From a virus, in IMG/VR virus record IMGVR_UViG_3300009192_000001, positions 1-33,308 of that record: a stretch of 33,308 nt of DNA; one strand, given 5' to 3'. Made by a program: the position numbers and the translations under genes. The notes beneath the pieces were generated by a model. It searched no databases and was not told where the DNA came from. It saw only the letters and a list, made by a program, of their open reading frames with translations. Shown here in pieces: positions 14,531 through 18,816 of the stretch. Every line of letters begins with the position of its first letter. The stretch's first letter is position 1.

Positions 14531-14968
14531 ATGTCTACGAAAAAAGAGCGTCAAAAAATTGTGGCCGATAAAACGGAAGCTGAGAAAAATCGGATATTAA
14601 AAATCATGCGTGATGCAGATATTTACACCCTTACTTTAGATCCATTAATTGAATCATATTTAGATATTTTCGAAGTTTACATGACGATGTTTATCGAATG
14701 GAAAGAGAAAGGATTTCCTCCTACTCAGCGTCACACCAATAAAGCAGGTGCCACAAATAATTCAAAGCACCCATTGGCGCAACAAGTAGAAACATGGGCC
14801 GATAAAAAAACCAAAGCATTAGATTTATTGGGGCTTACAAACAGAGCCAAAGTAGGCAGACAAATCACTGGCGGTTCCTCTGTAAGAAAGGATGAAGAAT
14901 TGAAGAAACCAAAAGCTACAGTAAGTCCATTAGATAAACATCGTTCGAAATGGCGGAATGCTACATGA
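14531..14968 (+). CDS. terS: Small terminase subunit, P27 family
   Basis: Recognises phage DNA for packaging and hands it to the large subunit. The 145-residue protein has the P27/Terminase_4 layout: a charged helical start (TKKERQKIVADKTEAEKNRI), a central helical part (LIESYLDIFEVYMTMFIEW) and the family tail motif around NSKHPLAQQVETWADK and ALDLLGLTNRAKV. It ends with a basic segment (KHRSKWRN). GGGGGGTG precedes ATG 14531. Its stop overlaps the large terminase start. Confidence 0.92.
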   Translation: MSTKKERQKIVADKTEAEKNRILKIMRDADIYTLTLDPLIESYLDIFEVYMTMFIEWKEKGFPPTQRHTNKAGATNNSKHPLAQQVETWADKKTKALDLLGLTNRAKVGRQITGGSSVRKDEELKKPKATVSPLDKHRSKWRNAT

Positions 14969-16692
14969 TTGAACGTGGCGTTAATTATGCAGATATTTAT
15001 ACAAAACAAGTAAGAAAGAATCCTAAAAAATATCCCGATACTATCAAAGCAATGGTAGATCGTTATTATAAATGGAAAAAGCGTAAAGATATTTGGTTCG
15101 ATGTGGACCGAGCGAATGAAATGATGGATTGGGTTGAAACGTTTGTCCGTCATACTAAAGGTGATTTAGCTGGACAACCTTTTATCCTGGAGGATTGGGA
15201 GAAGTTTGCTTATTCCTGGATCTATGGATGGGTTCATGAGAATGAAAAAGGACAAATTGTCCGAGTTACTCGTGAAGCTTACATTCAGGTTCCTAAGAAG
15301 AATGGTAAAACTTTAATCGGTGTTGGTGCTCTTGGTTATGCGATGTACGGTGAAGGCGTACTTAGTGCCGATTGTTATTGTTGTGCGAGTGATTTTAACC
15401 AGGCTCAATATGCAGCAAAGCCATTTGCAGCAACAATTATGAACCATGATGTATTAATGGATTGCTCACATATATATAAAGGTCCAAAAGGTACCATTTC
15501 TAGTGTGACTTATGACTACATTCGTGATGATTTAGCTTATCAAAACCAATTCATTGTAATGAGTAAAAACATTCAATCCATTGAGGGTTCCAATCCACAC
15601 TTCATTCTAAATGATGAGCTTCATGCTCAAGAAAATATGGATCAGTACGATAACTTTAAATCAGCACAGGTTTCTCGTGCTGAGCCGATTATGTTTAATA
15701 TCAGTACGGCTGGTAAAGGTTCTTCATCGGTTGGTATGCGAGTATATCGTGAAGCAAAAGAAGTATTGAAACGTGATGATAATGATTCAAGTTTCGTCAT
15801 GATATACGAACCTAACAAGAATTATGATTGGACAGACCGTAATGTTTGGGCGATGGTTAACCCGAATATTGGTGTTTCTGTAACGATGAGTGCACTTGAA
15901 ACAGAATTCATCTCCGCATCACGTTCAGCACATAAAAAAGCCGAATTCCTTTCTAAACATTTGAATGTATTCGTAAATGGAGCTGAGAACTTCTTTGAAC
16001 AAGGACAAGTTGAGCATGTTCTTGTGGAAGAGCTGGGTGATTTAACAGGTGAAACTTGCTACCTCGGCCTAGACTTATCGAAAACAACTGATTTAACATG
16101 TGTTAGCTTGAATTTCCCTAACGCTGGTTATACCGAAGACGGGAAATCCATTCTAAAAGTTAAACAAATGTATTTTGTGCCTAATGAAGATATTGAACAT
16201 CGTGAAAAAGAAGATAATGTTCCATATACTGATATGGTTGAACGTGGTTTTGTTACTTTTTGTGATGGCAAGATGATAAACCAAGACCAGGTTATGGATT
16301 ATATTGTGGAATGCTTAAATTTGTATGATGTACAACAAATAAACTATGATCCAGCGATGTCTCAAAAGTTAATTGAAAAACTTGAGAATCTTGGTCTTGA
16401 ATGCATTTCTGTAGGCCAGTACCCTAATGTTATGAATGCGATGATGGATGATTCAGAAATACTTATTTATGAAAAACGTATAATGACCGATAATCCTTTG
16501 TTTGTTTATTGCGCTCTTAACGTTGTAGTTGTAACAAATATCAATGGAATGAAAGCCCCAAGTAAGCGACAGTCCAAAAAGAAGATTGATGGATTTGTTG
16601 CTTTTTTATGTGCTCATAAAGAAACGATGATGGTTATGGATAGCATAACTGAAGAGGGTATGGATGAATTGATTGGTGATATTTATCGATAA
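14965..16692 (+). CDS. terL: Large terminase subunit (Terminase_1 family)
   Basis: Packaging motor and nuclease, 575 residues. The ATPase half contains Walker A-like VPKKNGKT (Lys115) and Walker B LNDELHA (Asp217, Glu218), with ISTAGKG as the following coupling motif. The nuclease half starts at YLGLDLSKTTDLT with its metal-binding Asp and includes YDPAM and IDGFVAFLCA. The length matches HK97-type large terminases. I chose ATG 14965, which overlaps the small-subunit stop (ATGA); ATG 14950 is in frame and would add five residues but has no binding site. This is the best gene for placing the phage among relatives. Confidence 0.96.
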   Translation: MIERGVNYADIYTKQVRKNPKKYPDTIKAMVDRYYKWKKRKDIWFDVDRANEMMDWVETFVRHTKGDLAGQPFILEDWEKFAYSWIYGWVHENEKGQIVRVTREAYIQVPKKNGKTLIGVGALGYAMYGEGVLSADCYCCASDFNQAQYAAKPFAATIMNHDVLMDCSHIYKGPKGTISSVTYDYIRDDLAYQNQFIVMSKNIQSIEGSNPHFILNDELHAQENMDQYDNFKSAQVSRAEPIMFNISTAGKGSSSVGMRVYREAKEVLKRDDNDSSFVMIYEPNKNYDWTDRNVWAMVNPNIGVSVTMSALETEFISASRSAHKKAEFLSKHLNVFVNGAENFFEQGQVEHVLVEELGDLTGETCYLGLDLSKTTDLTCVSLNFPNAGYTEDGKSILKVKQMYFVPNEDIEHREKEDNVPYTDMVERGFVTFCDGKMINQDQVMDYIVECLNLYDVQQINYDPAMSQKLIEKLENLGLECISVGQYPNVMNAMMDDSEILIYEKRIMTDNPLFVYCALNVVVVTNINGMKAPSKRQSKKKIDGFVAFLCAHKETMMVMDSITEEGMDELIGDIYR

Positions 16693-16706
16693 GGAGCGAA
16701 TGAGAA

Positions 16707-16919
16707 ATGAATTTTGGCCAAGCGTTTGAAGAAGTGAAAAAAGGTAAGGGGATGCGATTATCACAATGGAGTAAAGATGTTGTAATTCGTGCTCAATTCC
16801 CTGATGAACACAGTAAAATGACAGCCCCATATTTGTATGTAGAATCTCGTTTTGGTAGAGTTCCATGGAAAGAAACGAATATTGAATTATTCGCTGAGAA
16901 TTGGGAGGTTGTTAAGTAA
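16707..16919 (+). CDS. DUF2829 protein, Tad2-like (Thoeris anti-defence)
   Basis: A 70-residue protein matching the DUF2829 pattern along its whole length: MNFGQAFEEVKKGKGMRLSQW at the start (family form M-FG-A-E-LK-G-R--W), a PYLYVES strand, then GRVPWKETNIELFAENWEVV (family form VPW--S--D-LAEDW-VV). DUF2829 includes Tad2, phage proteins that bind the cyclic ADP-ribose-type signal of Thoeris defence and so stop host suicide. Whether this copy binds that signal is inferred from family membership; not every DUF2829 member has been tested. It sits directly behind the large terminase, within the late transcript, with AAGGAG about 12 bases and GAG closer to the start. The next gene overlaps it by one base. 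Confidence 0.8.
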   Translation: MNFGQAFEEVKKGKGMRLSQWSKDVVIRAQFPDEHSKMTAPYLYVESRFGRVPWKETNIELFAENWEVVK

Positions 16920-17134
16920 TGAAATTGAAAGAACAATTTATGGAAGAAGTAAAAACGGTAGGTACACCACAAATTATTTCTGTTGCAGTAAAGCTACCGA
17001 GTGGCGCAATTGAAGTAATTACAAATACTCAAGAAACTGTATCGAAGGCAGATTATTATATCAATACTTATGACGACGAGTTTAAATTGAAACATAACAA
17101 TGTAATTCAAATTGTAGGTTATATGATTGTTTAA
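16919..17134 (+). CDS. Small protein following Tad2-like gene, unknown function
   Basis: A 71-residue protein with a helical start (MKLKEQFMEEVKTVG) and a beta-rich body (IISVAVKLPSGAIEVITNTQ, then VIQIVGYMIV). It starts at ATG 16919, overlapping the previous stop, with GGGAGGTTG upstream. It is not recognised as a named family. Because it is co-translated with the Tad2-like gene and ends at a bidirectional terminator, it could be a second accessory or counter-defence gene; this is guilt by association only. Confidence 0.75.
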   Translation: MKLKEQFMEEVKTVGTPQIISVAVKLPSGAIEVITNTQETVSKADYYINTYDDEFKLKHNNVIQIVGYMIV

Positions 17135-17169: not shown

Positions 17170-17550
17170 TTAGTTAGGAACTTCAATATGATGAAGTTCT
17201 AGTAATAATGCTAAATCATTATAAGCTTCAATGAATTCATTGTAGTATCCAAAAGTCCATTGCATACTATGACCTGATTCTCTACTATTAATGAATTCTC
17301 TACTAAATTGTTCAAACTTTTCAATGAAACTATCATATTCCCAATGTGATAATTCATCGTTTTGAAGATAATAAGATTTCATTGCCATAAAGCTTGAATA
17401 AGCCATGGAATGATAGCCATATAAAGCGTGTTCGTTTATTTTTTGATCATTTAATTCTTTCTTTAATAAACGATACATATGTTTACAGTTAAATACCGAA
17501 GTTGAAACGAAATTCTTAATATTCTCTTTGTGATATAAAAATTTATCCAT
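17170..17550 (-). CDS. Inverted self-standing gene, unknown helical protein
   Basis: A 126-residue, probably all-helical protein rich in aromatic and charged residues. It begins MDKFLYHKENIKNFVSTSVF; further on is YHSMAYSSFMAMKSYYL, and the end is LALLLELHHIEVPN. No signal peptide or clear membrane span. AGGAGGTG lies six bases before ATG 17550, one of the best initiation sites in the window. It is read against the late operon, with its own extended -10 promoter and a bidirectional terminator. That is the arrangement of a moron, expressed from the prophage independently of the late genes. No family recognised. Confidence 0.75.
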   Translation of the reverse strand: MDKFLYHKENIKNFVSTSVFNCKHMYRLLKKELNDQKINEHALYGYHSMAYSSFMAMKSYYLQNDELSHWEYDSFIEKFEQFSREFINSRESGHSMQWTFGYYNEFIEAYNDLALLLELHHIEVPN

Positions 17551-17574
17551 TATATCCACCTCCTTCCACAATTA

Positions 17575-17583: not shown

Positions 17584-17631
17584 TATAAAGATATATTGTA
17601 AGTAGGGAGATATTTGAAAGGCGGTGAGAAA

Positions 17632-18816
17632 TTGGGTTTAAGGGATAGGTTTTCAAATTACTTATTTAAAAAAGCTGAAAAGCGCGGTTACCTCGATGAT
17701 GTTTTAGGAAAAAGCATTCGTTACGGCGGTGTATATGTTACAGATTCAAACATCTTGCAATCTAGCGATGTTTACGAGTTGTTGCAAGACATCAGTAATC
17801 AAATGGTATTGGCTGATATTATTGTGGAAGATGAATTTGGTAATGAAATCAAAGATGATATTGCACTTCGAATCTTAAGGAATCCTAACAATTATCTAAC
17901 ACAATCTGAGTTCATTAAATTAATGACTAATACCTATTTACTCGAGGGCGAAACATTCCCAATATTAAATGGTGCTCAAATACATTTAGCTTCAAATGTT
18001 TTTACCGAGTTAGATGATAATTTGGTAGAGCATTTTAATATTGGTGGTCACGAGGTTCCCTCTTTTATGATTCGTCATGTGAAAAATATTGGTGCAGATC
18101 ATTTAAGAGGAAAAGGTCTTCTTGATTTGGGAAGAGATACGCTCGAGGGCGTTATGTCGGCTGAGAAAACTTTAACTGACAAATATAAAAAGGGTGGACT
18201 ATTAGCATTCTTGTTAAATTTGGATGCCCATATCAATCCACAGAATGGTGCACAGTCAAAGTTAATCAATGCAATTTTAGATCAACTGGAATCAATCGAT
18301 GAAGCAAGGTCTGTAAAAATGATTCCACTTGGAAAAGGGTACTCAATTGACACGCTTAAAAGCCCGCTAGACGACGAAAAGACCTTGGCATATCTAAATG
18401 TATATAAGAAAGACTTAGGCAAGTTTTTAGGCATAAATGTGGATACATACACAGAGTTAATCAAAGAAGATATTGAAAAAGCAATGATGTATATCCACAA
18501 CAAAGCAGTAAGACCTATAATGAAAAATTTCGAAGACCATTTGAGTCTTCTTTTTTATGGCCAGAATTCAGGAAAACGAATTAAATTCAAAATTAATATT
18601 CTTGATTTTGTTACTTATAGCAACAAGACAAATATTGGTTATAACCTTGTGCGTACAGCCATTACTTCACCTGACAACGTTGCTGATATGCTCGGATTCC
18701 CTAAACAAAATACAAAGGAATCACAAGCTATTTATATTTCAAATGATTTAACTGAAATTGGCAAGAAAGAAGCGGCGGATGGTTCATTGGGAGGAGGTGA
18801 AGAGAATGAAAATTGA
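17632..18816 (+). CDS. Portal protein (HK97 gp3-type)
   Basis: Forms the twelve-subunit ring at one capsid vertex through which DNA passes. The 394-residue length and motifs fit the phage_portal family: MGLRDRFSNYLFKKAEKRG at the start, RILRNPNNYLTQSEFIKLM, a stretch YLLEGETFPILN, HLRGKGLLDLGRDTLEG, and the stem/crown region around MIPLGKGYSIDTLKSP and KDLGKFLGI. I chose TTG 17632 with AGGCGGTGA four bases upstream; TTG 17614 in frame, with GGGAG before it, would add six residues and is the alternative. It overlaps the protease gene by 11 bases. Confidence 0.93.
   Translation: MGLRDRFSNYLFKKAEKRGYLDDVLGKSIRYGGVYVTDSNILQSSDVYELLQDISNQMVLADIIVEDEFGNEIKDDIALRILRNPNNYLTQSEFIKLMTNTYLLEGETFPILNGAQIHLASNVFTELDDNLVEHFNIGGHEVPSFMIRHVKNIGADHLRGKGLLDLGRDTLEGVMSAEKTLTDKYKKGGLLAFLLNLDAHINPQNGAQSKLINAILDQLESIDEARSVKMIPLGKGYSIDTLKSPLDDEKTLAYLNVYKKDLGKFLGINVDTYTELIKEDIEKAMMYIHNKAVRPIMKNFEDHLSLLFYGQNSGKRIKFKINILDFVTYSNKTNIGYNLVRTAITSPDNVADMLGFPKQNTKESQAIYISNDLTEIGKKEAADGSLGGGEENEN

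Follow-up and report, generated by a model that had tools for sequence, protein, structure and literature searches.

On balance, the 70-residue Tad2-like protein encoded behind the large terminase gene of this phage is probably a sponge for a nucleotide signal, with a rebuilt pocket and a changed ligand that is perhaps not gcADPR. This reading is supported by family membership, fold, monophyly, purifying selection, the loss of a pocket signature, clustering with other sponge genes and the position of the gene as cargo. The window, by which we mean the whole 33,308-nucleotide stretch of viral DNA that was analysed, carries the gene among its head and packaging genes.

Position and family of the Tad2-like gene

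14,950 to 16,692, plus strand: terminase large subunit (TerL), directly upstream of the Tad2-like gene (PF20441, E 4e-40; PF03354, E 1.5e-15)
16,691 to 16,696, plus strand: strong ribosome-binding site (AAGGAG) for the Tad2-like gene; it overlaps the stop codon of TerL (sequence reading)
16,707 to 16,919, plus strand: Tad2-like gene of the short subfamily "class A", 70 aa (PF11195, fold match, subfamily alignment, tree)
16,919 to 17,134, plus strand: orf71, a small ORF translationally coupled to the Tad2-like gene (PHROG 3915, E 2e-19)
17,170 to 17,571, minus strand: orf133 (133 aa), an opposite-strand cargo ORF between orf71 and portal (PHROG 20330)
17,614 to 18,816, plus strand: portal protein, the right border of the cargo site, listed start TTG (PF04860, E 4e-26)

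The Tad2-like gene starts with ATG 14 bases past TerL, and its stop overlaps the start of orf71 by one base. The gap before its start is too short to hold a separate promoter, and late transcription together with the packaging genes is presumed; scans for promoters and terminators in its surroundings gave no signal that exceeds shuffles. An earlier note on this DNA had placed the gene directly behind the large terminase and had read its product as DUF2829 from end to end, to be checked by profile search. The upstream TerL matches confirm the former, and the search bears out the latter: PF11195 (Tad2-like, formerly DUF2829) aligns residues 1-69 to profile positions 1-73 of 73 with an E-value of 8.9e-14 and a score of 52.2 bits, about twice the curated cut-off of 25. 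The protein also matches PHROG 1048 (E 3e-14), while PADLOC and NCBIfam searches returned no match. In a single-sequence search, solved Tad2 was matched weakly (SptTad2, E 0.005), compared to 7e-15 to 1e-11 against the same solved set for a short Tad2-like protein with the usual signature. Judged by these matches, the protein is a genuine but distant member of PF11195.

In the window, the 921 bases between TerL and portal hold three cargo ORFs. Phage ctekg1, which has the same backbone, has an empty site, with the portal gene 21 bases past TerL; two further phages of this backbone, Wrath and YPHTV-1, have a 61-aa and a 107-aa ORF, respectively, between TerL and portal. The Tad2-like gene is a cargo insert in the head/packaging block, and orf133, missing in backbone relatives L006-L010, is a second cargo gene at the same site. 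Orf71 adjoins the class A gene in backbone relatives L001, L002 and L006-L010. A wider search with orf71 returned backbone relatives that were already known plus distant homologues in staphylococcal jumbo and Mammaliicoccus phages and nothing else; distant homologues sit between ribonucleotide reductase genes in Staphylococcus jumbo phage S6 and in Mammaliicoccus phages. Orf71 as a relative of Gp49_66, a family discussed below, was rejected, since profile comparison gave a probability of 3.5%. At the left end of the window, positions 35-1396 encode a large serine recombinase (PF00239, PF07508, PF13408), which fits a temperate phage. Plasmid and phage searches found partial relatives only (Phage Wrath, at 82% over one third of a single stretch, and a scrap of a Bacillus paramobilis plasmid).

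Conservation, pocket loops and predicted fold of class A

Relatives of the 70-aa protein were found on viral contigs (102 and 141 in two overlapping scans) and in species-representative genomes (22 in one scan), counts in which very distant relatives are under-represented because the search patterns were derived from the query. Among the records are Enterococcus, Paenibacillus, Companilactobacillus, Levilactobacillus, Clostridium, Lachnospiraceae, Oscillospiraceae, Pelotomaculum, Desulfobacterales, Flavobacterium, Parabacteroides, Tannerellaceae, Tenacibaculum, Akkermansia and one gammaproteobacterium, at 44-91% identity; many of them are metagenome bins, so that individual host names are uncertain. 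The backbone of the window phage is common to only approximately 8 of 80 viral loci and the flanking genes are unrelated in the rest. Class A occurs in unrelated phages and prophages of several phyla. It is also uncommon, with a single clear copy, that of the query genome itself, among 400 genomes searched from one bacterial class.

For L007-L009, TerL is 52% identical versus 94% for the Tad2-like protein. Across 4,753 pairs of relatives, the median pS is 0.81, which is saturated, versus a median pN of 0.14. Because synonymous sites are saturated, the conservation of class A reflects purifying selection and not recent copying, and recent transfer is ruled out as its cause. The viral relatives of both scans, together with saturated pS alongside conserved amino acids, likewise rule out a chance ORF. 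Two irregular copies were seen. In the Flavobacterium copy (L090:10001-10210 and L053), the codon for W21, which is invariant elsewhere, is an in-frame TAG, so that this copy is either decayed or has an amber codon that is read through. L103:339-671 encodes a class A protein in which an insertion of approximately 40 residues separates beta2 from the PY strand, at the position of the insertion in HgmTad2/AcrIIA7.

Three stretches of the gene matter for what follows:

16,758 to 16,781, plus strand: beta1-beta2 loop, codons 18-25 (LSQWSKDV), where R-x-GWNGKG of other Tad2-like proteins is replaced (class comparison; loop role, PMC12043709)
16,791 to 16,838, plus strand: codons 29-44 (AQFPDEHSKMTAPYLY), among the most conserved stretches of class A (alignments)
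16,869 to 16,901, plus strand: beta4-alpha3 loop and alpha3, codons 55-65 (KETNIELFAEN), where SxxDxLAxD of other Tad2-like proteins is replaced

For comparison, two further classes were gathered in the same way as class A: class B (SPO1/Myroides-like, mostly 83-96 aa) and class C (mostly 71-83 aa, with PDxHSKMT and RVPW). Class A is monophyletic, lying on one side of a branch with an SH-aLRT of 99 in a tree whose few columns leave most other forks open, and is nearer to class C (99.4%) than to class B (97.1%) in profile comparison. An alignment of 35 class A sequences has a mean column identity of 83% and 23 invariant columns, 16 of which fall within residues 30-62, and the signature MRLPxWxxDVxIxAQxPDExSKMTAPYLYVESRFGxVPWKETxIELF is present in our protein by alignment. 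The earlier note had described the protein as short and as diverged in the middle (AQFPDEHSKM). Short it is, but sister class C is short too, so that length is not special to this gene. The divergence of the middle does not hold up: AQFPDEHSKMTAPYLYVESRFGRVPW is among the most conserved parts of class A, with Q30, P32, S36 and M38 invariant, and PDxHSKMT is the consensus in class C too, which has the usual Tad2 pocket motif. The true divergence of the protein lies in the loop at residues 18-24 and in residues 55-65.

Classes B and C nearly always have R-x-GWNGKG in the beta1-beta2 loop and SxxDxLAxDW in the beta4-alpha3 loop and alpha3, and both signatures are retained in the solved Tad2/AcrIIA7 sequences whose alignments were examined. 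Six positions were scored (R18, G20, N22, S57, D60 and D65 in the numbering of the window protein). All six are retained in 45 of 51 class C and 53 of 54 class B proteins; among 56 class A proteins, 37 retain none, 17 retain one and 2 retain two, with a register around R17/L18 that depends on the alignment. Class A therefore lacks the pocket signature (R, G and N around W21; S, D and D around alpha3). Its replacements are equally fixed (among them L18, D24, V25, E56, T57, I59, E60 and F62), and the core tryptophans W21, W54 and W66 are retained. According to a review, two Tad2 protomers build the gcADPR pocket: one contributes loops beta1-beta2 and beta3-beta4 together with strand beta4, and another contributes loops beta1-beta2 and beta4-alpha3 together with helix alpha3 (PMC12043709); the signature is assigned to the pocket lining from these loop names and not from residue contacts. 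That the ligand may differ, as the earlier note suggested, is supported at the level of sequence, by the pocket-loop residues and not by the middle segment.

AlphaFold2 predictions, made as single chains, reached a pLDDT of 85.6 with the class A alignment and 95.7 (pTM 0.81) with an alignment of all three classes, taken from the window and the fetched loci. The best 16 PDB matches of the model are all Tad2 (query TM 0.78-0.87), namely SPO1 Tad2 in apo and gcADPR-bound form and the Myroides protein in apo and hisADPR-bound form, and the next match has an E-value of 0.8. The best named viral models that match it are Tad2-like as well. The model thus gives a predicted Tad2 fold, its protomer matching solved Tad2 chains. 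A helix is missing from it between beta2 and beta3, the location given for helix alpha2 of the Tad2 dimer (PMC12043709), and with this SPO1 dimer helix absent, a tetramer with a pocket is not assured.

Among known proteins, SPO1 Tad2 (Bacillus phage; PDB 8sme, 8smf and 8wje), which binds gcADPR, agrees with our protein in fold (query TM up to 0.87, E 1.9e-4), family and core tryptophans, at approximately 20% identity in structural alignment; it differs from class A in having the beta2-beta3 helix, R-x-GWNGKG and SxxDxLAxDW. ModTad2 (Myroides odoratus prophage; PDB 8v3e and 9eib), which binds His-ADPR, likewise has the same family and fold (query TM 0.81-0.85) but retains R-x-GWNGKG and S..D..AEDW, both of which are missing in class A. 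AcrIIA7/HgmTad2 (PDB 8kbi and 9kzr) and SptTad2 (8wjd) have a PF11195-type profile match, as does class A, but their solved domains (101-104 aa) are extended by a long insertion that separates beta2 from the PY strand, described as a cyclic-dinucleotide site in Tad2 (PMC12043709). The AcrIIA7/HgmTad2 insertion is absent from our protein, which has 12 residues there (29-40) versus at least 40 in 8kbi. The nearest relatives, class C (e.g., Mycobacterium phage Curiosium gp4 and Pseudomonas phage PaBG), have PDxHSKMTxPY and RVPW in common with class A but, unlike it, retain R-x-GWNGKG and SQTDxLAxDW. We know of no ligand for a class C protein.

Genomic company of class A genes

Neighbours were counted for the 67 class A genes flanked left and right by 2.5 kb or more. 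In 45 of these contexts (67%), a gene for terminase, portal, capsid or head protease lies within five ORFs, compared to class B at 50% and class C at 35%, as detected with head-gene profiles that were built from pooled neighbours and miss divergent head genes. Within the class A loci, each of the 11 further Tad2-like ORFs and each of the 6 Acb2-like ones (anti-CBASS sponges) directly adjoins the class A gene, with a random expectation of 0.10 in each case, and all 8 Gp49_66 genes lie within two ORFs of it; these cases are related, representing perhaps eight lineages, and are not independent. The Acb2 profile was also built from pooled neighbours, and Pfam confirms the neighbours as Acb2/Tad1 hairpin (E 3e-25 to 2e-6) and Gp49_66. 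A canonical Tad2 gene is directly beside the class A gene in just 10 of 67 contexts, which rules out an obligate heteromer of the two as a general rule. In L020:2916-3630, three different Tad2-like genes (a divergent 76-aa member, class A and class B) follow each other in tandem with overlapping stops and starts; tandem DUF2829 genes have been noted before around AcrIIA7 (PMC6739104).

Other small genes recur nearby. A natural fusion in L182:5995-7032 joins a class B Tad2-like domain to Phage_gp49_66 (PF13876) and crAss001_48 (PF21825), and Gp49_66 genes also adjoin class B Tad2-like genes and a DUF2829 gene on a Cronobacter plasmid; the Gp49_66 family may likewise have a role in counter-defence. 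DUF6275 (PF19791) genes directly adjoin class A genes in L092:9725-9988, L301:6195-6479 and L327:5725-5988, making this family another candidate member of the small-gene cassettes. DUF3310 was seen two genes upstream of class A in L084 and, as a weak match, fused to a class C Tad2-like domain in a Methanomassiliicoccales virus (L110:719-1561). The family, its sponge role and tandem DUF2829 genes are already known. In the open literature that we searched, we found no account of the class A branch, of how it lost the signature or of the way it clusters with Acb2, and we do not claim priority for them.

Ligand, timing and alternative readings

In the proposed mechanism, the small Tad2-fold protein would bind and hold a host-made, nucleotide-derived immune signal, so that the effector (an NADase, nuclease or membrane killer) stays off. 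We infer both the nucleotide binding and a signal other than the gcADPR bound by SPO1 Tad2. Production of the sponge would presumably coincide with that of the capsid proteins late in infection, at the time when a defence that senses capsids would respond. Late timing had been a worry of the earlier note and is partly answered: in a staphylococcal Thoeris, the trigger is the major head protein of the phage, which is produced late (PMC12578639), so that a sponge would be needed only when the signal is made, and 45 of 67 class A genes lie near head or packaging genes. A stronger version, in which class A would sponge a nucleotide immune signal bound by no known Tad2, one chemically fixed and sufficiently widespread for phages of several bacterial phyla to maintain a nearly invariant pocket for it, is possible, and we put it forward tentatively.

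A ligand other than gcADPR is argued for by the replaced signature and by the canonical Tad2 that is frequently next door. However, the retained fold and tryptophans still allow gcADPR binding, and it is conceivable, if unlikely, that class A works as a conventional anti-Thoeris Tad2, with a pocket of different build but equivalent function that still accommodates gcADPR or another ADPR-type signal. Its closest structures are SPO1 Tad2 and the His-ADPR-binding ModTad2, and family members are known to switch among ADPR-type ligands (PMC13299392). Such a protein would have replaced six residues that are fixed elsewhere, and would be redundant where a canonical Tad2 adjoins it. Near-invariance across phyla is unusual for an arms-race protein and counts against the sponge reading; the same very strong conservation speaks for a protein of phage physiology, binding nucleotides for DNA metabolism or packaging. 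Such a non-defence role is allowed because some Tad2-like genes sit among nucleotide-metabolism genes: in Enterococcus phage 9183, relatives have genes for dUTPase and guanylate kinase as neighbours; in Acinetobacter phage XC38, a class C-like relative adjoins ribonucleotide reductase; and DUF3310 is the fusion partner of one class C domain. We nevertheless regard it as quite unlikely in view of the sporadic, cargo-like occurrence of class A (the empty site in a relative and the single copy in 400 genomes) and its adjacency to Tad2 and Acb2 sponges.

Two more functions have been connected with this family. AcrIIA7 carries a DUF2829 domain (PMC6739104), and its solved structure (9kzr) belongs to the family. 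Class A has neither the long insertion nor the signature of AcrIIA7/HgmTad2, making an anti-CRISPR of this kind very unlikely. A type I toxin resembling S. aureus MW1434, which we take to be a DUF2829 protein, is hardly credible, as the class A model is compact, of alpha/beta type, and shows no membrane helix. MW1434 (81 aa) is among predicted type I toxins (PMC6266405), and its toxin status is a prediction only.

If class A is indeed a sponge, its interest goes beyond this phage. Sponges are a direct route to the alarm molecules that bacteria use, and class A is a ready probe, in that a ligand caught by it in a defence-active lysate would likely be an immune signal. The branch presents a Tad2 pocket that was rebuilt and then frozen while moving between unrelated phages, often beside Tad2 and Acb2 sponges, and its context offers a reason for late timing where a defence senses capsids. 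Small cassettes of Tad2-like, short Tad2-like, Acb2-like and Gp49_66 genes in head-gene blocks are a place to seek counter-defence genes. Should class A bind a signal that no known Tad2 binds, this would point to a signalling defence that is undescribed or so far uncountered.
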